This document shows, in pieces, positions 29,718 to 43,584 of a stretch of 64,000 nt of DNA (within the stretch, counting starts at the first letter, position 1; the number at the start of each line of letters is the position of its first letter). The notes beneath the pieces are model-generated. The model did not search any database and had not been told where the DNA came from. It saw nothing but the letters and a program-made list of their open reading frames with translations. Source of the DNA: a candidate division WOR-3 bacterium (GTDB lineage Bacteria > Hydrothermota > Hydrothermia > UBA1063); the NCBI GenBank assembly GCA_039803545.1, contig JBDRYS010000001.1:685866-749865 (forward strand), written 5' to 3'. The position numbers were made by a program, and so were the translations under genes.

Positions 29718-30574
29718 AATTTGTTATATTTGGCTCAAAAGGTCAGTTGGGAAGGGAACTTGCTAAGAATTTAATGGAAAGGAACTTTGAAGTAGTTGGC
29801 TTTTCACACGAGGAAATAGACATCACTGATTACCGAAAAGTCGAAGAAGTTTTAAAAGATTTTAAACCCGATGTAATCATAAATGCTACAGCTTACAACA
29901 ATGTAGATAAGGCCGAAGAAGAGCCCGAAAAAGCCTTCAAGGTAAATGCCTACGCCGTTAGAAATCTGGCAGAACTCGCTAATAAATACAACTCCATCCT
30001 AGTCCACTTCAGTACCGACTATGTTTTCGATGGGGAAAAAGGTGCCCCATATACCACACTTGATCTTCCCAACCCGATAAATACTTATGGGAAAAGCAAA
30101 CTTCAGGGGGAAATCTTTGTACAGGAAATTGCAAAGAGGTACTTTATCATAAGGGTAAGCTGGGTTTTTGGTTTTGGAAAAACAAATTTCCCCTTGAAAT
30201 TAATTGATATGGCTGAGAAACAAAAAATAATAAAAGTGGCGACAGACCAAACAAATTCCCCCACATATACCATCGACGCCGCAAAGGGAATAACAGAACT
30301 AATCCTCAAAGGCAAATTCGGATTGTACCACCTTACCAACAGTGGATATTGTTCGAGATACGAATGGGCTGAAGAAATATTAAAAGACTGGGGATGGGAA
30401 GGTGAATTATTGCCGGCAAAAACCGAAGACTTTCCCTCTCCCGCAAAAAGGCCACTCTTTACCGCCCTCGACTCCTCAAAATTTGTTGAAGAAACGGGTT
30501 TTATAATGCCTGATTGGAGAGATGCAGTTAAACGTTTTATCAAAAAACTCCGTGAGAGTAAGAATGTTCCATGA
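29714..30574 (+). CDS. rfbD: dTDP-4-dehydrorhamnose reductase
   Basis: 286 residues. 'FVIFGSKGQLGRELAKNL' is the NADPH-binding motif (GxxGxLG), 'VIINATAYNNVDKAEEEPEKA' is the family signature, 'VHFSTDYVFDGEKGAPY' holds the Thr, and 'NTYGKSKLQGE' the catalytic Tyr-x3-Lys. It makes dTDP-L-rhamnose. Its end overlaps the start of the CapD-like gene by 11 bases, so the three genes form an operon for surface sugar donors. Confidence 0.96.
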   Translation: MKFVIFGSKGQLGRELAKNLMERNFEVVGFSHEEIDITDYRKVEEVLKDFKPDVIINATAYNNVDKAEEEPEKAFKVNAYAVRNLAELANKYNSILVHFSTDYVFDGEKGAPYTTLDLPNPINTYGKSKLQGEIFVQEIAKRYFIIRVSWVFGFGKTNFPLKLIDMAEKQKIIKVATDQTNSPTYTIDAAKGITELILKGKFGLYHLTNSGYCSRYEWAEEILKDWGWEGELLPAKTEDFPSPAKRPLFTALDSSKFVEETGFIMPDWRDAVKRFIKKLRESKNVP

Positions 30575-31760
30575 CTTTGATGCCTTGAAAATCATTGGAA
30601 GGGAAAATTCCCTCTTTGAGGAAGAGGAATCCCAATACAAAGAATTAATTTCAAGGGAAATAGAAGCAACCTCCTTCCTGATAATTGGCGGAGCAGGGAG
30701 TATCGGTAGAAGTGTTGTAAAGGAGTTAATAAAACTAAAAGCAAAACAAGTACATGTGGTTGATATCAATGAAAACAACTTAACCGAGCTTATAAGGGAA
30801 ATAAGAAGTTCGGACATAGATATTAAGTCCGATTTAAAAACCTACGTACTGGATGTGGGTTCACCCGAGTTCTATAACTTTTTTAACAGTAACTCACCCT
30901 ATGATTTTGTTTTCAATCTTTCCGCATTAAAGCATGTAAGGAGCGAAAAAGACCCTTACACTCTTATGAGAATGATGCGGGTAAATATCCTCAACGTGGA
31001 GTTTTTAACTGAGCTTCTACCTCAAAGGGGATCAAAAAGATTTTTTTCTGTATCTACTGATAAGGCAGTAAACCCCGTCAATCTTATGGGAGCATCGAAG
31101 AGGGTGATGGAACTTCTGCTTATCTCGAAGATGGACAACCTGCGGGTCTCCTCTGCCCGTTTCGTCAACGTTGCTTTTTCAGAAGGGAGCCTCTTATGGG
31201 GATTCCTGAGAAGGATTGAAAAAGATCAACCTATCGCTGTTCCAAAAGGAATCAAAAGATACTTTATTACCCTCGACGAATCTGCCCTTTTTTGTATCCT
31301 TACTGCCATTCTCGCCGAGTCAGGCGAAATTTTCACCATGAAATTGGAAAAATTGAGGCCCGTACCCCTTGTTGATATCGCCGTTAGACTATTGGAATTC
31401 TACGGATTTGAACCTTTCTTTACTGAAGATGAAAAGGAGGCGAAATCGAAAGTTAGAGAATTAATTAAGGCTAAGAAGTGGCCCATTTATCTATCTCCTC
31501 CAGATACCACCGGAGAAAAGGAACTTGAAGAACTTTACTCCGAAAGTGAAAAGGTTGATCACCAGAGGTTCAAAAACCTTTCGGTGGTACTACCCGATAA
31601 AAGCTACGCAGATTCCATCTCTCCACAAATAATTCAAGGGCTTAAAAGTCTGATCGAAAGAAAGAACTGGACAAGAGAAGAGATAATAGACCTCTTTAAA
31701 ACATACCTCCCAGAATTCAACCACTTAGATACGGGAAAATTTCTCGACGATAGAATGTGA
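30564..31760 (+). CDS. UDP-GlcNAc 4,6-dehydratase-like protein (CapD/PglF/FlaA1 family, soluble)
   Basis: 398 residues from the ATG at 30564. 'FLIIGGAGSIGRSVVKELIK' is the Rossmann motif, 'DFVFNLSALKHVRSEKDPY' and 'FSVSTDKAVNPVNLMGASKR' are CapD-family signatures with the Lys of the active site. No transmembrane helices precede the catalytic domain, unlike PglF. The N-terminal 40 residues and a C-terminal region after 340 ('NWTREEIIDLFKTYLPEF') are extra. The chemistry should be 4,6-dehydration (with or without C5 epimerisation) of a UDP-HexNAc, feeding surface glycans. Upstream reading to 30522 is inside rfbD and not supported. Confidence 0.84.
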   Translation: MFHDFDALKIIGRENSLFEEEESQYKELISREIEATSFLIIGGAGSIGRSVVKELIKLKAKQVHVVDINENNLTELIREIRSSDIDIKSDLKTYVLDVGSPEFYNFFNSNSPYDFVFNLSALKHVRSEKDPYTLMRMMRVNILNVEFLTELLPQRGSKRFFSVSTDKAVNPVNLMGASKRVMELLLISKMDNLRVSSARFVNVAFSEGSLLWGFLRRIEKDQPIAVPKGIKRYFITLDESALFCILTAILAESGEIFTMKLEKLRPVPLVDIAVRLLEFYGFEPFFTEDEKEAKSKVRELIKAKKWPIYLSPPDTTGEKELEELYSESEKVDHQRFKNLSVVLPDKSYADSISPQIIQGLKSLIERKNWTREEIIDLFKTYLPEFNHLDTGKFLDDRM

Positions 31761-31761
31761 A

Positions 31762-32331
31762 TTAAAGAACTCCCAAGTGTTCAAGAAGAATCTTTAAACC
31801 TAACAAAATCAATATGACTCCTCCAATGGCCTGAGAGTACTTAATTTTCTTTGCAAACTTTGAAAAACTGGACCCAAGGAAAACCCCTGTAAAGCTAATC
31901 AAAGAAGTTAAAGCAAAAACCAGAAAGGCAAAGAGGGCAAGGGTCTTTAACAAAAGAGAAGTAACAAGTCCAATGGCAAAGGCATCAATGCTAACTGCCA
32001 TAGCAACCCCAACGAGAGTCTTAAAATCTCCGGAAAAACCTTCCGCCTCCTTTTCCTGTTGAAATTCTTCAATGATCATATGAACTCCAATGGCAAGCAA
32101 CACAAAAAAGGCTACCCAGTGGTCAAAGGAAAAAATCCAGTTTGCTGCAAATCTTCCTCCCAAAAAACCAAAGAGGAAGAAGAGAGCGTGAACAAGGCCA
32201 AAGGTGATGCCAATTTGAAGAAACCTTTTATAATTTATTGACTTAAGCAGAAAACCTTCAGTTACCGAAGAGGTAAAGCAATCCAGATTGATAGAAATCA
32301 CGAGAAGTAGAAAATAGATGATTTCTTTCAT
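31762..32331 (-). CDS. mntP: MntP/YtaF-family manganese efflux pump
   Basis: 189 residues with six hydrophobic segments in two repeats. The paired motifs 'ISINLDCFTSSVTEGF' and 'AVSIDAFAIGLVTSLL' contain the Asp residues that define MntP. The proteins export Mn2+; the close relative YtaF has the same fold, so the metal is inferred. The ATG overlaps the stop of the DegT-like gene by 4 bases, so it is cotranscribed with it although no functional link is clear. Confidence 0.86.
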   Translation of the reverse strand: MKEIIYFLLLVISINLDCFTSSVTEGFLLKSINYKRFLQIGITFGLVHALFFLFGFLGGRFAANWIFSFDHWVAFFVLLAIGVHMIIEEFQQEKEAEGFSGDFKTLVGVAMAVSIDAFAIGLVTSLLLKTLALFAFLVFALTSLISFTGVFLGSSFSKFAKKIKYSQAIGGVILILLGLKILLEHLGVL

Positions 32332-33503
32332 TTTGCGATAAGGGTCTCCCGTAGCGAGTCGACCACATACGAAACATCGAATTCTGTTAGATCCCCATGG
32401 AAAGGTAAAGACAAAAGGCGTGAGGAAATTTTCTTCGCCACCTTTAAATTAGCGGAATCGAATTCCCTAAAATTTTCACGGTAAAACTTAAGGTCAGTAA
32501 GAAGAGGGTAAAATACCTTTGTAGGCACCCCCATCTCCATTAAACGCCTAATAAGTCCATCCCTATCAACTCCCTCTGGTAAAAGAACTGTTAGACTATA
32601 CCACGATACCTCCGAATCCTTTGGTGCACCGATAAGTCTTATACCCTCGATTTTACTAAGCTCTTTTTCATATAGTTCACGAATCTTTTTCCTCTTGTTT
32701 AGAATTTCAGAAATCCTCATCATCTGGCCAAGTCCAATGGCACTGGAAAGCTCGTCCAAATTGTAATTGTAACCTCCAATAATCGCCTGATACTCTACAT
32801 ATTCGGTGGGAACTCCATAGTACCTGAGACTCTCCCCTACTTCGTAGTGTTCTCTACTTTTAAAGGCAATACCACCTCCCTCTCCAACATTAACAGCGCC
32901 ATACCTTGTAAAACTGAAAACACCGACATCACCTGTGATACCGGTTAAAACCGCTTCCCCTGCAAACTTATACGTACTACCAAAACTCTCCCAGCACACC
33001 TCTAAAAGGTCAAGGCCAAATTCTTCTTTGAGTTTCAAAAAAGCTTTAAGATCACATGGAATACCGTAAAGGTGATAGAGAACAATCCCTCTTAAAACCC
33101 TCCCTGTAACCTTATTCTTTAAACCAGATTTATCCTTCTCATAGTTGTCCATAATAAATTCCCTGACCTTCTCAGGGTCTAATGTAAAACGGTCCTGTTC
33201 AATGTCAACGACCTGAAGACCTATCCCCTCGGCACAAAGTGCGTTCGGCACCCCCACATGAACAAGAGGAGACAAAATAACCTCGTCCCCACGTCCCCAA
33301 CCTAAAACCTTAATGGCAATGTGCAAGGCCGAAAATCCACTGGACGTTGCAAGGAAATAAGGGGCCTTCAGATACCGGCGTACCTCTTCCTGAAATCTCC
33401 AAAGAAAAGGCCCTGCCGTTAAAATCTTTGACTCAAGAACGTTTTCAATCAAATTTTTCTCAAGCTCTGTCACATCGGCCTTGTAAAAGCTAATCCTTTC
33501 CAT
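32328..33503 (-). CDS. DegT/DnrJ/EryC1-family protein lacking the PLP lysine and aspartate
   Basis: 391 residues with the complete DegT fold: 'YFLATSSGFSALHIAIKVLG', 'VILSPLVHVGVPNAL', 'FGSTYKFAGE' and 'GVFSFTRYGAVNVGEGG'. In sugar aminotransferases of this family (such as ArnB) an Asp in EDAAH binds the PLP ring nitrogen and a Lys in FSFHxxKN forms the Schiff base. Here the two positions are V169 ('LLEVCWES') and G202. Both essential residues are missing while the fold and the phosphate-site loop remain. The reading frame is open and unbroken. It therefore cannot be a normal aminotransferase. It may be a structural or regulatory partner, or may act without PLP. It lies 3 bases after an intact class V aminotransferase gene. 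Confidence 0.85.
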   Translation of the reverse strand: MERISFYKADVTELEKNLIENVLESKILTAGPFLWRFQEEVRRYLKAPYFLATSSGFSALHIAIKVLGWGRGDEVILSPLVHVGVPNALCAEGIGLQVVDIEQDRFTLDPEKVREFIMDNYEKDKSGLKNKVTGRVLRGIVLYHLYGIPCDLKAFLKLKEEFGLDLLEVCWESFGSTYKFAGEAVLTGITGDVGVFSFTRYGAVNVGEGGGIAFKSREHYEVGESLRYYGVPTEYVEYQAIIGGYNYNLDELSSAIGLGQMMRISEILNKRKKIRELYEKELSKIEGIRLIGAPKDSEVSWYSLTVLLPEGVDRDGLIRRLMEMGVPTKVFYPLLTDLKFYRENFREFDSANLKVAKKISSRLLSLPFHGDLTEFDVSYVVDSLRETLIAK

Positions 33504-33506
33504 TCT

Positions 33507-34607
33507 CTAAAACCTCTTTAATAAATTAATCAAGGTGTTTACCTCGTCTTCGGTGTTGTAAAAATGGGGAGAAACCCTTATAAAACCGTTGCGCAAAGAT
33601 GTTCTAATGCCTTCCCTTTGTAAGGCAAGATGGAGCTCTAATGAAGATAAGTTAGGTAATCTGAAAGTAAAGATTCCCCCACGCCTTTCGGGGTTTTTTG
33701 GAGTAATAACATCAGCAAAGGTTAACTCTTCAAAAAGGGTATCTAAAAATCCCTTTATACGCGAAAAAATTTTCTCCACGCCCATATCGAGGATCATCTC
33801 CAAGTTACCACTCAAATAAGAAAGTCCCCAATAGTTCTTTGTACCTGTTTCAAAAACCCTCGCATCATTAAAGGGTTCGGGCAAATGGGAAAAATCTGAG
33901 AACCCACTCCAGGGACAAGATAGCCATCCGATAAAAGCCTTCGACAATTTATCAAAGGCCTTTTGATCTATGTATAATATCCCAATACCCTGAGGTCCTA
34001 AGAGCCACTTTGAAGCCCCTGCAACTAAAAAGTCCACTGAAAATTCCTTAGGATATAGGGGGACAGCTCCCAATCCCTGAATAGCATCTACAAGGACAAA
34101 AAAGCCATACTTCTGCTTGAGACTGCTTAGCCTTTCGAGATCAAATCTCTTTCCAGAAAAATAGTCAATCCATTCTACTGCAACCATTCTTGTTTTTGGT
34201 CCAATGGCCTCTTCCAGCTTATTTTCACTAACCTCAACGACCTTTATACCATGTCTATTGTACCTGAAGGGGTAAAGGAGAGCAGGGAAATAGCCCACCA
34301 AAACAACTTCGTCATCTGGCTCCCATTCAATAGACTCTATTATCAAGTTGATCCCAATGGATGTATTCTGAACAAGGGCTATTTCCGAGGATTCGACTCT
34401 TAACAGGTTGGCCACATACTTCCTTGTGGTTTCCGATATTTCTTGAAGCAAATCCCATCCCACTTCACCTTCTTCTCTTAGCACTTCGAGGTAACGTTCC
34501 GTCTTGCCAAGAGAATAAGTATTCAAAGGAGTGGTACTGGCGTGATTAAAATAGATATACTTCTGCGTTATAGGAAAATATGACCTGTATTCCTCAAATT
34601 TTTTCAA
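33507..34607 (-). CDS. Class V aminotransferase (cysteine desulfurase/isopenicillin N epimerase-like)
   Basis: 366 residues. 'IYFNHASTTPLNTYSLGKTE' is the class V opening, 'LVQNTSIGINLIIESIEW' the PLP phosphate region, 'LVDAIQGLGAVPL' gives the Asp and Gln at the PLP ring, and 'AGASKWLLGPQGIGILYID' the PLP lysine. No CysSS-type catalytic loop is present, so it is not a standard desulfurase. Candidate activities are an epimerase, a lyase or an aminotransferase. It follows tRNA-Arg by 12 bases on the same strand and precedes the PLP-less DegT protein, which suggests they act together. Substrate unknown. Confidence 0.82.
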   Translation of the reverse strand: MKKFEEYRSYFPITQKYIYFNHASTTPLNTYSLGKTERYLEVLREEGEVGWDLLQEISETTRKYVANLLRVESSEIALVQNTSIGINLIIESIEWEPDDEVVLVGYFPALLYPFRYNRHGIKVVEVSENKLEEAIGPKTRMVAVEWIDYFSGKRFDLERLSSLKQKYGFFVLVDAIQGLGAVPLYPKEFSVDFLVAGASKWLLGPQGIGILYIDQKAFDKLSKAFIGWLSCPWSGFSDFSHLPEPFNDARVFETGTKNYWGLSYLSGNLEMILDMGVEKIFSRIKGFLDTLFEELTFADVITPKNPERRGGIFTFRLPNLSSLELHLALQREGIRTSLRNGFIRVSPHFYNTEDEVNTLINLLKRF

Positions 34608-34619
34608 ACATTAAAACAA

Positions 34620-34693
<74 letters not shown>

Positions 34694-34694
34694 G

Positions 34695-35192
34695 CTACAA
34701 GAATACATGATCTAACCTCAATATCTTACCATTCTCTACTTCCATAACTCCATAGGACCTTCTCGGCGCGAAGATAGTATCCGTCGGTGAGCCAGGGTTA
34801 AAAAGAACTAAACCCTTCTCCTCCTTCTTTAGAGGCCTGTGAGAATGTCCAAACACTATCAAATTCAAATCTTTATCATCTTGAAATTTCTCCAGCACCT
34901 TCTTCTCAATGCCCCAGGGCGCACCTATTCCATGATAAAGGCCAACTTTTAGTCCCTCAATTGCAAAAACAAGTTTTTCAGGAAGTAGAGAAAAAAGGTC
35001 GTCGTCATCCATGTTTCCCCTAACGGCGTAAATAGGCTTTTTCAAAAGCTGGAGATCTTGATAAAAATTATAGGAAGTAAAATCCCCTGCGTGTATTATT
35101 GCATCACAGCTCGAAATTTCAGCCTTTATCTCCTTTGGCAGTTCTTTCGCCCTATGGGGAATGTGGGTATCCGATAGGATAACAATCCTCAT
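34695..35192 (-). CDS. YfcE/MJ0936-family metallophosphoesterase
   Basis: 165 residues. The metal ligands are visible as D7 and H9 in 'LSDTHIPHR', Asp in 'HAGDFTSY', Asn in 'RGNMDDDD', His in 'LYHGIG' and the pair in 'FGHSHRP'. The family hydrolyses phosphodiesters, with cyclic nucleotides or artificial substrates in characterised members, using two metals. It lies in an operon: its ATG overlaps the stop of the 29-residue gene upstream (TAATG), and tRNA-Arg follows after one base. Its natural substrate is unknown. Confidence 0.9.
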   Translation of the reverse strand: MRIVILSDTHIPHRAKELPKEIKAEISSCDAIIHAGDFTSYNFYQDLQLLKKPIYAVRGNMDDDDLFSLLPEKLVFAIEGLKVGLYHGIGAPWGIEKKVLEKFQDDKDLNLIVFGHSHRPLKKEEKGLVLFNPGSPTDTIFAPRRSYGVMEVENGKILRLDHVFL

Positions 35193-36805: not shown

Positions 36806-38632
36806 ATGCTCAAGAGGTTAAAAGTTGAGGAGTCTTCCTATTCGCAAGTCTTATCAGAGCTCATAGAGTTCGTTTTTCAACTCCTCTCAGAGGTCTTCCA
36901 GGATTTTAAATACGGCGTCGTTTTAACCAAGCCAACAGGAAAGCCCATTCAAATAATTTCAAAGGGAATAAACGAGGCAGAATTAAATGGACTCATACAA
37001 CAGTTGGAACTTTCCGCCACTCCAAAGGACTCTCCCTTCAAGATCAACGGATTTAAAATTTACCCATTAAAAGGAAAACTGGGCTCTTATGGTTACATCT
37101 TTGTTGCAGAAGGCGCTGGATCCGAATCTGCCTATTTGGAAAGGGCTTCAGAAACCTTTTCCAAAATCACGGAACTCTTAAGCCTTCTCGATTACCATTT
37201 TGTGGATCCAGGAACGGGGCTTCCAGGGAAAAAATATCTCCTCGACCGCATTGATGAGCAGATTCAGAGGAAAATAAGGTACAAGGAAGACTTTTCATTA
37301 ATAATCATAAAGTTAGATAACTTCGAGGAACTTTCGAGAAACCTGCCTGAGGAATCCTTCGATGCTCTCATCAGAGATATTGCACGTTTTATCACAAGAA
37401 TGAAAAAAAAAAGTGACATCCTATGCAGATTTGACTTAGACAAGCTTGCAATCTTGATGCCGCACACAACATCTGAAGGTACAAAAACCTTCATAGAAAG
37501 GTTAAGCTCTGCACTAAATTTTGAATCCTTTCATATAAACCACACTGCTGTAAAATGCAAATTTTCTCTTGGATACATCAATTCAGAAGACTTACACACT
37601 TTAGAGCACGACGAATTCGTCCTAAATGCTCTACTACAACTAACTACTAAAGGCAAAAAGGCACAATCTCAGGAAAACCTTTTCACCGTTGAGATTATCG
37701 GGAACTCCAGCAAGATGGCAAAAATAAAGGAGGAGATCCTAATTGCCTCCCAAACTGATATGACCGTTCTTATACTGGGGGAAACTGGCACGGGTAAGGA
37801 GCTTGTTGCAAGAAAAATCCATGAATTGAGTGCGAGGAGGGATAAACCCTTCGTAATAATTGATTGTGCTTCAATACCCGAAACCCTCTTAGAGTCTGAA
37901 CTTTTCGGACACGAAAAGGGAGCCTTTACGGGAGCGACCTCAAGAAAAATTGGGCTCTTTGAATCCGCAGCCGGTGGCACTGTGTTCCTTGATGAAATTG
38001 AAGCCACATCGCCAGGTATGCAGGCAAAATTACTAAGGGCCATCGAAGAAAAGACTATAAGAAGAGTGGGGGGTACAGAGCTCATACCCATCGATGTAAG
38101 GATAATTTCAGCATCAAATGTCGATCTTGAAGAGGAAGTTAAAAAGGGAAACTTTAGAAAAGACCTCTATTACAGAATCTCTGGAATGGTGATAAAGTTA
38201 CCACCCCTCAGAGAAAGGAAAGAGGATATTCCTGAACTGGTGAACTACTTTATCAAAAAATACTCCATTGAAGAAGGCAAAATTATAAAAGGGGTCACAC
38301 CTGCTGTCTACGAACTTCTAAAATCCTACGACTGGCCTGGAAATGTGAGGGAGCTGGAAAAGGAAGTTGAGCGAATGATCGCCTTTACGGAGGACGGTGG
38401 ATATATTACCGTTGACAAACTGTCCCCCAAAATTACAGCCATGGAATCCCATGTCTTCTCCCTCGACGAGCTCGTGGAAAACTATGAGAAAAACATTCTG
38501 ATCGATGCCCTTCTCAGCTGTGATTGGAATGAGACGAAGGCGGCAAAGATGCTGGGGATTTCAAGAACCAGCCTCATTGCAAAGATGAGAAAGTACAACA
38601 TTAAAAAGAGGGAAAATGGAACCTGGAATTAA
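36806..38632 (+). CDS. Sigma-54-dependent activator with degenerate GGDEF domain
   Basis: 608 residues. About 1-125 is an uncharacterised sensory-type region. About 130-275 matches the GGDEF fold ('[16 protein letters not shown]', '[14 protein letters not shown]') but the signature is replaced by '[13 protein letters not shown]', so cyclase activity is not expected. About 290-525 is an AAA+ sigma-54 activator domain with Walker A 'GETGTGKE', the GAFTGA loop intact ('[10 protein letters not shown]') and Walker B '[10 protein letters not shown]'. The C-terminus is a Fis-type helix-turn-helix ('[19 protein letters not shown]'). It overlaps the first prepilin gene by 17 bases, so it probably controls the pilus genes. 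No receiver domain is present. The degenerate GGDEF might bind c-di-GMP or GTP instead. Confidence 0.9.
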
Positions 38633-39083
38633 TAGGTTAAGGAAGGCATTCACTCTGCTGGAATTGGCCATAGTGTTAATACTTATTGGCATTCTTATCG
38701 GAATTGTTGTGAGGGGTATGCAAACAAATTACACTGCTAAGGTCAACGCGACTGTTGAATCTTATAGAGTTAATCTCTACGCCGTTGAAAACTATTTTAA
38801 TACTTACAGAAAATACCCGGGTGATAATAATAGCGACGGTAAGATCGAAAGTGATGCGATACCTGTTTTGCGAGCCAGCGGCTTTGATGTGAAAACTACC
38901 AATCCCTTTGGCGGCACCTTTACCATTTTATGGAGAAACTTCGTGAGTGACAGCGGGAACTACATTTATTCCGATAGAATTCCCCTTAGTGCCGATTCTC
39001 TGATTGATGCTAAAATCGATGATGGGGACCTGGATGCAGGAAGATACAGGAGAATCTCCAATGTCTCCTACCTCAAATTTTAA
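38616..39083 (+). CDS. Type IV prepilin-like protein with Ca-loop motif
   Basis: 155 residues. The 11-residue leader '[11 protein letters not shown]' precedes '[18 protein letters not shown]', the class III signal with Glu at +5. The residue before the cleavage point is Ala rather than Gly. The globular part contains '[15 protein letters not shown]', an EF-hand-like D-x-N-x-D-G-x-I-x-x-D loop shared with the other small prepilins at 48995 and 49487. It is probably a pilin or minor pilin processed by a prepilin peptidase. It overlaps the activator upstream and the next prepilin downstream. Confidence 0.85.
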
Positions 39084-39906
39084 AAAAGGCTTCAGCCTTA
39101 TCGAACTCTCCGTCGCCTTAGTAGTAATGGGACTCCTTACCGCCGTTGCCATCCCAATAACTCTAAGTGTAACGAGAAATCAAAAGATAAGGCAAGCAGA
39201 AAGTGAACTCGAAAACATTAGAGGGTTAATAATCTCCTCTTACAATGTTAACGGTAAACTCCCATCCCATGACGCAACGTATACCCTTCCCACAGCAAAG
39301 CTCGGTATTCCCGACCAATACAAGAATGATCCTATAAAAGGTATCCCTTACCTCTATTATGCGGACACCGTATCAGGGTCTAACGATACAATTTATGTCG
39401 ATGGCATCCCCCTTGGAGGCCTTTCGGCAGTGATTATTAGCGCTGGACCAAATGGAAAATTCGATGGTGAAAATGCGACGCCGGGAGATCGAAGATTTGC
39501 ATCCACAGGAACAGGGGACTTTGATGATGTTTTATATTATGTGTGCGAGTTGGACTTAGCCCCCTCCACAACTAATACCTCAACCAATATCTGCAATAAC
39601 TATACTCTTATTGTGCGAAACAAAAACCAGAGGTCTAAAATAACTGAATATGGCCGAGTGCTTTCAACAACTACAACCAACTTTTCAGTAGCCTATCTTT
39701 CAAGTTACACTCTCACCGGTATCTCGCCTGTGGCTTGTATTCAACTTTCACCCGATAATACATATCAGCAAAATAGAACTTACTGGTTTAATATAGCGAC
39801 TTACAATGAGGGCTCCGACTGTACAGTTGAGGTGGTGATTTACACTGACCAATATAATGTTGCGGGCAGTGACCCACCCGCTATAACGAGGGATCTATAC
39901 AGATGA
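39061..39906 (+). CDS. Large prepilin-like protein (paralogue 1)
   Basis: 281 residues from the ATG at 39061 (AGGAGAA upstream). 'NFKKG' then 'FSLIELSVALVVMGLLTAV' is a canonical prepilin leader with cleavage after Gly. The globular domain has 'GKLPSH', 'NDPIKGIPY' and 'SAGPNGKFDG', then 'GTGDFDD'. The next gene has the same blocks, so the two arose by duplication. The SAGPNG block recalls the calcium-binding end of GspG pseudopilins. The C-terminal 100 residues contain a beta-rich module of unknown function. It overlaps the preceding prepilin by 23 bases and the next by 4. Confidence 0.85.
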   Translation: MSPTSNFKKGFSLIELSVALVVMGLLTAVAIPITLSVTRNQKIRQAESELENIRGLIISSYNVNGKLPSHDATYTLPTAKLGIPDQYKNDPIKGIPYLYYADTVSGSNDTIYVDGIPLGGLSAVIISAGPNGKFDGENATPGDRRFASTGTGDFDDVLYYVCELDLAPSTTNTSTNICNNYTLIVRNKNQRSKITEYGRVLSTTTTNFSVAYLSSYTLTGISPVACIQLSPDNTYQQNRTYWFNIATYNEGSDCTVEVVIYTDQYNVAGSDPPAITRDLYR

Positions 39907-40694
39907 AACGCGGATTTACTTTAATAGAAATTTCCATCGCCCTGATTCTTTTAGGCATAATAGCCGGTATTTCCATACCCCTCTTAACACAGACAAGGAG
40001 ATCAAAGGGCATCGAAGAAACCCAACAGGAACTTCAAACCTACAAAAAGCGTATAATAACCTATTACAAAACCTACGGTAAACTTCCTTCCCACACCACT
40101 AATTACAGACTACCATCTTCTCTTTTACAAATCCCGACAAAATTCTTAAACGATCCAATCAATGGGATACCATATTTTTACTTTGCTGATACAACCAATA
40201 CCTCCGATTCAATTTATATAGACGGCATCCCTATCGGCAGTATTGGAGCGGTTATAATTTCGGCAGGACCAAACGGTAAATTTGACGGTCAGAATTCTGA
40301 CATATCAAGTCCAGATAGGTATTTTCAGAGCAAAGGCACGGGGGATTTTGATGACATCTTAATAGCAATCTCTCAAGCAGAACTTATCACCAGTGGAACA
40401 TCTACCTGTCCAAATTACCTCGTAATTGTAAGAAACACCAGCGGTTCAACCATTTACGCTTTCCCAACTCAACTACAAACAGGTTATACAACCATTAATA
40501 ACAACTCCAGTGCGATCTTTGGAAATGTGAAACCAAATGAAGTAATTCTTCTTTCGATATCTTCAAACTTTCCCCCTCATCAGACCAACGCCTTTGTGCC
40601 GATAATCCTTGACTGGAATGGTAACTGCATTGTGGACGTGAGAATTACAACAAGAAACAATGATGTGCCGATCTACACCCTCGATAACAATTAA
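39903..40694 (+). CDS. Large prepilin-like protein (paralogue 2)
   Basis: 263 residues. 'MKRG' then 'FTLIEISIALILLGIIAGI' is a short prepilin leader with Glu at +5. It shares 'GKLPSH', 'NDPINGIPY', 'SAGPNGKFDG' and 'GTGDFDD' with the preceding paralogue, but the C-terminal module differs. Its ATG overlaps the stop of that gene by 4 bases. It ends the plus-strand pilin cluster, 30 bases before the convergent end of the biogenesis operon. Likely a minor pilin or pseudopilin of the same machine. Confidence 0.85.
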   Translation: MKRGFTLIEISIALILLGIIAGISIPLLTQTRRSKGIEETQQELQTYKKRIITYYKTYGKLPSHTTNYRLPSSLLQIPTKFLNDPINGIPYFYFADTTNTSDSIYIDGIPIGSIGAVIISAGPNGKFDGQNSDISSPDRYFQSKGTGDFDDILIAISQAELITSGTSTCPNYLVIVRNTSGSTIYAFPTQLQTGYTTINNNSSAIFGNVKPNEVILLSISSNFPPHQTNAFVPIILDWNGNCIVDVRITTRNNDVPIYTLDNN

Positions 40695-40724
40695 TTAATT
40701 TGAAAAAATTTCGCAGATGTCAAA

Positions 40725-41918
40725 TTACCTTATACTCCCTATGGTCTGGTAAATAGGCAAAAGGACCGAGACAAAAATCAATGCGGCGAATACGCCGATG
40801 AAAATAATTAAAACTGGCTCCAAAATGGCCTGTAATCTCTCAACGGTGCGGGTCAGTTCAGATTCATAATAGAAAGAGAGGCTGTTAAGCTGCTTAGGTA
40901 AAGTCCCCGTTTCCTCACCAATGGAAACCATCGAACAGAAAAGGGGCGGAAAACCCAGATTCCTCACCGCCTCCCCGAGCCTCTGTCCCGAAGTCACGAG
41001 AGTTTTTAATCTCTCGATCAGATTGACAAGGTATAAATTCCCTGTACTGAAGGTCAAAAGCTCAAGGGCGGTGCTCATATCGATTCCAGCCTCCAACATT
41101 AAGGCAAGGAAGGTCGTAAAATGGGCATAAAAGGATTTAACAAGTACATCCGACAGAATGCCCAACTTTTCCACCAAAACCTTCTCAATGATTACTCTGG
41201 TAGATTTTTGCTGATACATTAAAATCAAAGCCCCTATAACTACAATCAAGAGGATCACAAAAAGGAAAACAAATTTTTTAAGAAACCCTACAACGGTGAT
41301 TACGAAAACCGTTATAAAAGGCAGGCTGGTTCCAAGACCCTTAACCAGATCAATCACCCTCGGTAACACATAAAAGAGGTAAAAAATAGCCGCGATAGAT
41401 ATCGTAGTAACAGCAAAGGCTGGATAAATTAAGGCTTTGATGGTCTTATCCTTCTGCTCCTCCTCCCTCTGCATAACATTCACAATCCTTTCTAAGGTCT
41501 TGGGAAGAGTTCCGCTCTCCTCACCTACTTTCAAAGCCCCAAGGTAGTAAGGCGGAAAAACTGTTTTAAAACGAGAGAATGCCTCATAGAGAGAACTTCC
41601 TTGAAGAAGGGCAAGACGTATCTCTTCAATAACCTTTTTCAAGTCTTTGCTCACCGCTTCATCCCTTAAACTTTCCAGTCCCACCGTAATTGGAACGCCA
41701 GAACTTATAATAGAATGGAGTTGCATTGTGAATAAAATTAATTCCTTCCGCTTTACCCTGTACCTTGGCTTAAAGGAAAATATTGTAGACTTTCTCACTT
41801 GTAAAGGGGTTAGTCCTTGCTCCTTCAAGATTTTTACGGCGACCACTTCATTCTCAGCCTCGATATAACCTTTTACCTTTTCACCCCTTGCGTTTAATCC
41901 AATGTAAACGAACTCCAT
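40725..41918 (-). CDS. mshG: Inner-membrane platform protein (MshG/PilC/GspF)
   Basis: 397 residues with two T2SSF domains. 'KRKELILFTMQLHSIISSGVP' opens the first and 'FYAHFTTFLALMLEAGIDMS' the second; three hydrophobic segments separate and end them. 'KVGEESGTLPKTLERI' and 'SIGEETGTLPKQLNSL' are the matching repeat motifs. It anchors the pilus assembly motor in the inner membrane. It is the last gene of the ten-gene operon and follows the ATPase by one base, in the E-G order of MSHA loci. Confidence 0.94.
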   Translation of the reverse strand: MEFVYIGLNARGEKVKGYIEAENEVVAVKILKEQGLTPLQVRKSTIFSFKPRYRVKRKELILFTMQLHSIISSGVPITVGLESLRDEAVSKDLKKVIEEIRLALLQGSSLYEAFSRFKTVFPPYYLGALKVGEESGTLPKTLERIVNVMQREEEQKDKTIKALIYPAFAVTTISIAAIFYLFYVLPRVIDLVKGLGTSLPFITVFVITVVGFLKKFVFLFVILLIVVIGALILMYQQKSTRVIIEKVLVEKLGILSDVLVKSFYAHFTTFLALMLEAGIDMSTALELLTFSTGNLYLVNLIERLKTLVTSGQRLGEAVRNLGFPPLFCSMVSIGEETGTLPKQLNSLSFYYESELTRTVERLQAILEPVLIIFIGVFAALIFVSVLLPIYQTIGSIR

Positions 41919-41919
41919 A

Positions 41920-43584
41920 TCAACCTATGACTCTCAAAACCTCACTTAGATTGGTAATCCCCTCTTTTACCTTTTTTATTCCGTCCTCCAACATCGTTTC
42001 ATATTTGACAACAGTCTCAATCTCATGAAGGGGAGCACCTCTCTGGATTAGTTCCCTTACCTCTTCTGTTATTTCAAGAATCTCAAAAATTCCCGTTCTG
42101 CCACGATAGCCAGTGTGGAAGCAGTGGGAGCAGCCCCTACCAACGTATTCCTTCTCATCCTTAGCAAAGTACTTTTCGAGACCAAATTTTTTAACTAAAT
42201 TAATATCCACAGGCTGAGCCACCTTGCAGTTTTCACACACCCTCCTCACCAACCTCTGCCCGATGATAGCAATGAGCCCCACTGACATTATGTATGGATC
42301 AACACCAAGATTTAAAAGTCTCGGAATAGCCTGAATCGCCGTATTGGCATGAATAGTTGTTAAGACCAAATGCCCGGTAAGGGACGCCTGGAAGGCCAAT
42401 TCAGCCGTCTCTCGGTCCCTCATTTCACCTACCAGAATAACATCAGGGTCGTGCCTTAAAATACTCCTTAGGGCGTTGGCAAAGGTAAATCCCGCCTTTT
42501 CATTGACCTGGGACTGTTTTATCAGCGATAACCTGTACTCTATAGGATCCTCTATGGTCATAATGTTCTTTTCAAGGGAATTTAGCTCTAACAAAATGGA
42601 ATTCAAAGTCGTAGTTTTACCTGATCCCGTTGGTCCACATACCACAATAATCCCAAAGGACTTTTGGATCAAATTTCTTATTCTCACGAGTTTTTCCTGG
42701 GAAAGGCCCAGTTTCTCAAGCCCCAGTATAATATTTGTCCTCTCGAGAATCCTCAAAACCACACTTTCCCCATAAGGCGTTGGATAGGTAGATACCCTTA
42801 TGTTTATATTTTTCATACCCAACTGGAAGTTAAACCCCCCATCCTGTGGAACCCTCTGCTCGCCAATATCGAGGTTAGACATAATTTTAATCCTGGTGAC
42901 AATGGAGGGATGGAGTCTCCTTGGAATGGTGTAAATGGGATGCAATACCCCATCAACACGGTACCTTATCCTGGAAACCTTATCCGATGGCTCAATGTGG
43001 ATATCTGTAGCATCCAACTGGATTCCTTTTAAAACGATCAGATTGACAATATTTGCAATGGGAGCCACTTCTGCGCCAAGTTGTTGGATCCTGATAGCCT
43101 CTCTTATATTGGCTTCAAAGTCTTCATCGGAACTAACATGGAGACCGTAAATATTTTCAATAGTTCTCAAAATCTGCTCTTCCCTTGCCACTTTTACTAT
43201 GACTCTAAGTCCAGTGATTTGCTCAATAGTGTCAATAGCCTTGAAATTAAAGGGATCCTGGATGGCTACGACAATTGATTTACCATCGGTAGTTATCGGG
43301 ACAACCTTATTTTCTCTTGCAACATTATAAGGAACGAGCTTAATTACCGCTGGATTAATTATCACCTCTTCCAGATTTATAAATTCAACGCCAGCCTGGT
43401 GGGCAATAGCATAAGAAATTTCCTCTTCTGTAACAAGGCCGAGCCTCAAAAGTATCTCCCCCAGTTTTTCCCCTGTCCGAGTTTGTTCCTCTAAAGCAAG
43501 CTTAAGCTCTGTCTCGGTAATAAAACCCATGTTGAGCAATATTTCCCCGAGTTTTAAGGTGTACTTTTTACTTTCCACCTGCAA
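41920..43584 (-). CDS. mshE: Assembly ATPase (MshE/PilB/GspE)
   Basis: 554 residues. An N-terminal MshEN-type domain carries repeated 'LGEILLNMGFITETELKLAL' and 'LGEILLRLGLVTEEEISYAI' motifs, which bind c-di-GMP in MshE. The ATPase core has Walker A 'GPTGSGKTTT', the Asp box 'TIEDPIEY', Walker B 'ILVGEMRDRET' and 'HANTA', and a four-Cys zinc site 'CENCKV' with 'CSHCFHTG'. It powers pilin polymerisation. Two N-terminal MshEN copies make c-di-GMP binding possible; the key residues would need alignment to confirm. Confidence 0.95.
   Translation of the reverse strand: MQVESKKYTLKLGEILLNMGFITETELKLALEEQTRTGEKLGEILLRLGLVTEEEISYAIAHQAGVEFINLEEVIINPAVIKLVPYNVARENKVVPITTDGKSIVVAIQDPFNFKAIDTIEQITGLRVIVKVAREEQILRTIENIYGLHVSSDEDFEANIREAIRIQQLGAEVAPIANIVNLIVLKGIQLDATDIHIEPSDKVSRIRYRVDGVLHPIYTIPRRLHPSIVTRIKIMSNLDIGEQRVPQDGGFNFQLGMKNINIRVSTYPTPYGESVVLRILERTNIILGLEKLGLSQEKLVRIRNLIQKSFGIIVVCGPTGSGKTTTLNSILLELNSLEKNIMTIEDPIEYRLSLIKQSQVNEKAGFTFANALRSILRHDPDVILVGEMRDRETAELAFQASLTGHLVLTTIHANTAIQAIPRLLNLGVDPYIMSVGLIAIIGQRLVRRVCENCKVAQPVDINLVKKFGLEKYFAKDEKEYVGRGCSHCFHTGYRGRTGIFEILEITEEVRELIQRGAPLHEIETVVKYETMLEDGIKKVKEGITNLSEVLRVIG

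Follow-up and report, generated by a model that had tools for sequence, protein, structure and literature searches.

The window analyzed here is a stretch of 64,000 nucleotides from a candidate division WOR-3 bacterium (contig JBDRYS010000001.1 of assembly GCA_039803545.1). Its minus strand carries a gene for a DegT-family protein, referred to below as the divergent DegT protein, which lies among the following features:

30522..31760, plus strand: UDP-GlcNAc 4,6-dehydratase gene (3pvz family), running towards the operon, with an intact STDK...MGASK motif
31762..32331, minus strand: MntP-like membrane exporter gene, whose ATG overlaps the end of the divergent DegT gene by 4 bases
32328..33503, minus strand: divergent DegT gene, encoding a likely DegT-fold pseudo-aminotransferase without Asp169 (Val) and Lys202 (Gly) and with Trp171
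32874..32912, minus strand: rewritten Lys motif segment, residues 198-210, reading FTRYGAVNVGEGG where relatives have FYxxK..TTGEGG (coordinates from residue numbers)
32943..33002, minus strand: rewritten Asp motif segment, residues 168-187, with EVCWES in place of the usual E-D-A/S-A/C-Q/E/H (coordinates from residue numbers)
33507..34607, minus strand: class V PLP-fold enzyme gene directly upstream of the divergent DegT gene, Asp174 and Lys200 intact, without the desulfurase Cys
34620..34693, minus strand: tRNA-Arg(CCG), upstream of the class V gene, kept in all four sampled species
34695..35192, minus strand: YfcE-type phosphodiesterase gene, part of the conserved gene order

The frame at 32328-33503 had been described as open in an earlier note on this DNA, and it indeed encodes 391 amino acids from an ATG start with zero internal stops. 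The Pfam profile DegT_DnrJ_EryC1 (PF01041) covers the protein over its full length (residues 12-385; 238.9 bits against a cut-off of 19.8), and the only other full-length match to this profile in the genome lies away from the locus. Orthologues in three congeneric species are 74, 60 and 57% identical. The same note had placed an intact class V gene 3 bases before the divergent gene; the junction reads TAG AGA ATG, an AGAGG ribosome site lies inside the 3' end of the class V gene, and both catalytic residues of the class V enzyme are present. All four sampled species keep the order YfcE, class V, divergent DegT, MntP and convergent dehydratase, and in the two congeners compared over a long stretch RmlD, RmlC and further flanking genes also follow in the same order. 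Because its position, about 12 bases before the class V start and 1 base past yfcE, is the same in all four species, the tRNA gene may share a transcript with the operon. The stem of the class V protein is ordinary, and its family occurs in several WOR-3 lineages; the analysis turned up no function for this family. Elsewhere in the window, at 38616-43584, translations alone point to three pseudopilin-like genes facing PilC- and PilB-like genes of the type II secretion/type IV pilus kind.

The convergent dehydratase scores 385 bits to the family of structure 3pvz, and among 147 WOR-3 genomes its close relatives occur only in the genus that carries the divergent DegT protein. It is 45% identical to a protein encoded on a Rhodobacteraceae plasmid, and horizontal gain is possible; it was not found in a scan of viral contigs, and phage records gave only partial matches of 27-30%. 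On the plasmid, a LegC-family aminotransferase with intact residues directly precedes the dehydratase of the same family, an arrangement which suggests, though it does not prove, that the divergent DegT protein and its dehydratase formerly made up an ordinary pair for sugar amination. LegC (TIGR04181) is also the best NCBIfam match of the divergent protein, at 203.3 bits, short of the curated 420-bit cut-off, and the two share an NKxTG insert and the E-S that follows the Asp motif. However, the catalytic residues of LegC are gone from the divergent protein, and the plasmid LegC does not join it in the tree.

The loss of both cofactor residues claimed in the earlier note (V169 for the PLP-ring Asp, G202 for the Schiff-base Lys) holds in an alignment of 100 proteins, comprising the four divergent DegT proteins and 96 from outside the subfamily (WOR-3 DegT proteins and the one plasmid LegC). 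V169 and G202 fall in the Asp and Lys columns, and all 96 comparison proteins have Asp and Lys at these positions. Across the four sampled species of the genus, position 169 is V, V, V and A and position 202 is Gly throughout, and in all four the gene is encoded together with an intact class V enzyme. Among 73 viral DegT proteins, gathered with patterns containing the Asp or the Lys motif and hence biased to intact sites, Asp is present in every one, Lys in 70 and His in place of Lys in 3. The last three, which keep Asp and resemble ColD/E1, lie on viral contigs at L220:2501-3619, L237:2501-3625 and L247:2501-3616. A third substitution, missed in the note together with coordinated changes at 82, 143, 214, 228-231, 248 and 336, affects position 171, two residues past the Asp: it is Trp in all four divergent proteins, whereas the 96 comparison proteins all have A, C, S or T and the 73 viral proteins all have A or C. 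In fold type I enzymes the Asp+2 residue (Ala224 of aspartate aminotransferase) lies packed on the pyridine ring, and by analogy we propose that Trp171 should block the PLP ring sterically. The divergent DegT protein cannot transaminate by the family mechanism.

The remainder of the pocket is a mixture of altered and retained positions. Phe82 to His, Val143 to Tyr, Thr214 to Phe and Arg248 to Asn are fixed changes in the alignment, while His336 is replaced by Thr or Phe and the NQGR motif (228-231) is altered as well. The NQGR motif, Arg248 and His336 are conserved in the family and are likely sugar-nucleotide contacts; with these changed, there is no assurance that the ancestral ligand still binds. 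Retained are Ser55-Gly56, Ser197, Asn246 and the GEGG loop, in agreement with the earlier statement that flanking motifs such as NVGEGG are intact. In ArnB-type structures these elements serve phosphate binding and the dimer, Asn246 being the cross-subunit phosphate contact of the DegT family. Within the genus, His82, Tyr143, Cys170, Trp171, Arg200, Tyr201, Asn205 and Asn248 are fixed, and the assigned pocket positions, picked from family motifs and not from coordinates, are 69% invariant across the four species vs 42% elsewhere, a value matched by 3 of 10000 random sets.

The AlphaFold model of the divergent protein (51 sequences) has an intact fold, with a pLDDT of 96 and a pTM of 0.93, and the loop that formerly bore the Lys is predicted confidently (blocks at 95-98). 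Among solved structures, its fold comes closest to those of ArnB and GDP-perosamine synthase (TM 0.87-0.90, 25-26% identity). Judging by the titles of the structure records, crystals of ArnB K188A contained PLP and UDP-Ara4N, and those of GDP-perosamine synthase K186A a sugar ligand, so loss of the Lys is by itself compatible with cofactor binding.

In a quick tree of the 100 proteins, in which deep placement of the clade is not firm, the divergent DegT proteins form a fully supported clade whose stem, at 1.57 changes per site, is longer than any other internal branch. Branches inside the clade (0.1-0.3) are like those of the ordinary DegT of the genus. Compared with the nearest species, the gene in the window has a dN of 0.18 and a dS of about 2.2, which is near saturation, for an omega of about 0.08. 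The pattern is one of rapid change and then constraint, and not of decay. The gap in bit score from 755 to 285 confines the subfamily to the genus within the 147 WOR-3 genomes. A scan of 84,980 species with two N-terminal peptides, which diverged relatives could escape, recovered close orthologues only in two WOR-3 genomes with the divergent protein, named UBA1063 and UBA5631, plus one remote DegT. The protein is known from four species, and independent losses were sought among the sampled WOR-3 proteins and the viral proteins.

Several explanations can be weighed against these data. The missing catalytic residues could mark a recent pseudogene or an assembly error, but the identical state in four separate genomes, the open frame, the omega of about 0.08 and the more strongly constrained pocket make this a reading with next to nothing in its favor. 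Since three congeneric orthologues carry V/V/A and G/G/G at the two positions, an error in one genome is excluded. The changed site reflects neither a sequencing error nor decay, and against simple decay the earlier note had argued too. Retention of a B6 cofactor as a PMP co-substrate, in the manner of ColD- or E1-like enzymes that have exchanged Lys for His, is highly improbable. It would agree with membership in the same family and with a phosphate cup in which Ser197 and Asn246 are kept, yet the residue here is Gly and not His, the Asp is lost while all three Lys-to-His viral proteins keep it, and Trp171 would collide with the ring. The ColD/E1 dehydrases thus resemble the divergent protein in their altered Lys, and differ in using His with PMP and in keeping both Asp and cofactor binding; the combination of His for Lys with a conserved Asp is not what is seen here (Gly and Val/Ala).

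The earlier note had suggested a non-catalytic partner of the class V enzyme or a binding protein. A partner like the LCB1 subunit of serine palmitoyltransferase would form an obligate complex with the class V protein, shaping its active site or stability. This has some appeal, given that the two genes sit side by side with little space between them in all four sampled species and that their products change at similar rates (74/60/57% identity for the divergent protein, 77/61/61% for class V); LCB1/SPTLC1 is likewise a PLP-fold protein without the Lys that is proposed to work with an active partner. However, LCB1 and LCB2 are close homologues (PMC3794620), whereas the divergent and class V proteins have no significant similarity (BLASTP E 0.58; profile comparison probability 3.7%). 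Class V relatives in other WOR-3 lineages also had no DegT neighbor in the 1.5 kb flanks inspected. A read-through fusion of the two proteins, a weak stand-in for a heterodimer, was modelled from five sequences with a pLDDT of 53 and a pTM of 0.39, values too low to count for or against a complex. A physical complex is possible, but we regard the obligate-subunit reading as unlikely, and of that part of the note's claim only the shared operon stands.

Slightly less likely again is an enzyme that works independently of PLP, for instance by isomerizing a keto-sugar nucleotide from the dehydratase through His82, His144, Cys170, Glu172, Arg200 or Tyr201. None of these six residues varies among the four orthologues, each of the four species has the dehydratase as a neighbor, and the plasmid pairing of an intact LegC-family aminotransferase with a dehydratase of the same family points in the same direction. 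On the other hand, the likely nucleotide-contact residues have changed, the dehydratase lies on the opposite strand, and we know of no DegT-fold enzyme without a B6 cofactor. The fuller version, a B6-free enzyme with a new pocket on a sugar-aminotransferase scaffold, taking either the keto-sugar nucleotide of the dehydratase or the product of the class V enzyme as its substrate, is a little more doubtful still. A cofactor-free enzyme would be the more exciting outcome, and it is less likely than a binding or regulatory protein.

The binding or regulatory protein is accordingly the part of the note's proposal that fits best. The divergent DegT protein is likely a PLP-free pseudo-aminotransferase with a rebuilt, conserved pocket. 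It would descend from a DegT-family sugar aminotransferase of the usual PLP kind. By this account the ancestor of the genus saw the Schiff-base Lys and the PLP-ring Asp disappear and a Trp arise at Asp+2, so that PLP should no longer fit. A dimer with its phosphate cup was probably retained, because the fold, the GEGG loop, Ser197 and Asn246 are kept. With the rest of the pocket rebuilt from residues fixed in the genus, a ligand different from that of the family is very probably bound; on sequence grounds, the protein would no longer bind PLP and would hold this other ligand in its predicted pocket. Since selection has kept the protein intact despite the lost cofactor contacts, it very probably has a new role. 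Most likely it serves the pathway of the operon that it shares with the class V enzyme and the MntP-like exporter, as a binding or regulatory protein that does not transaminate. As a whole, this sequence of cofactor-site loss, pocket rebuilding and a binding or regulatory function is the account we consider probable, though by no means assured.

The divergent protein remains like other members of the DegT/DnrJ/EryC1/StrS family (PF01041; ArnB, GDP-perosamine synthase) in its full-length profile and fold, but differs from them in having no Lys, no Asp, a Trp at Asp+2 and a rebuilt pocket. Literature searches made here for DegT members without the Lys, or with joint loss of Asp and Lys, returned none. 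There are few pseudoenzymes of PLP fold type I. The divergent DegT protein is a clade-wide case, with abrupt change followed by constraint in a conserved operon, and lends itself to a clean test of how an enzyme with a cofactor turns cofactor-free.
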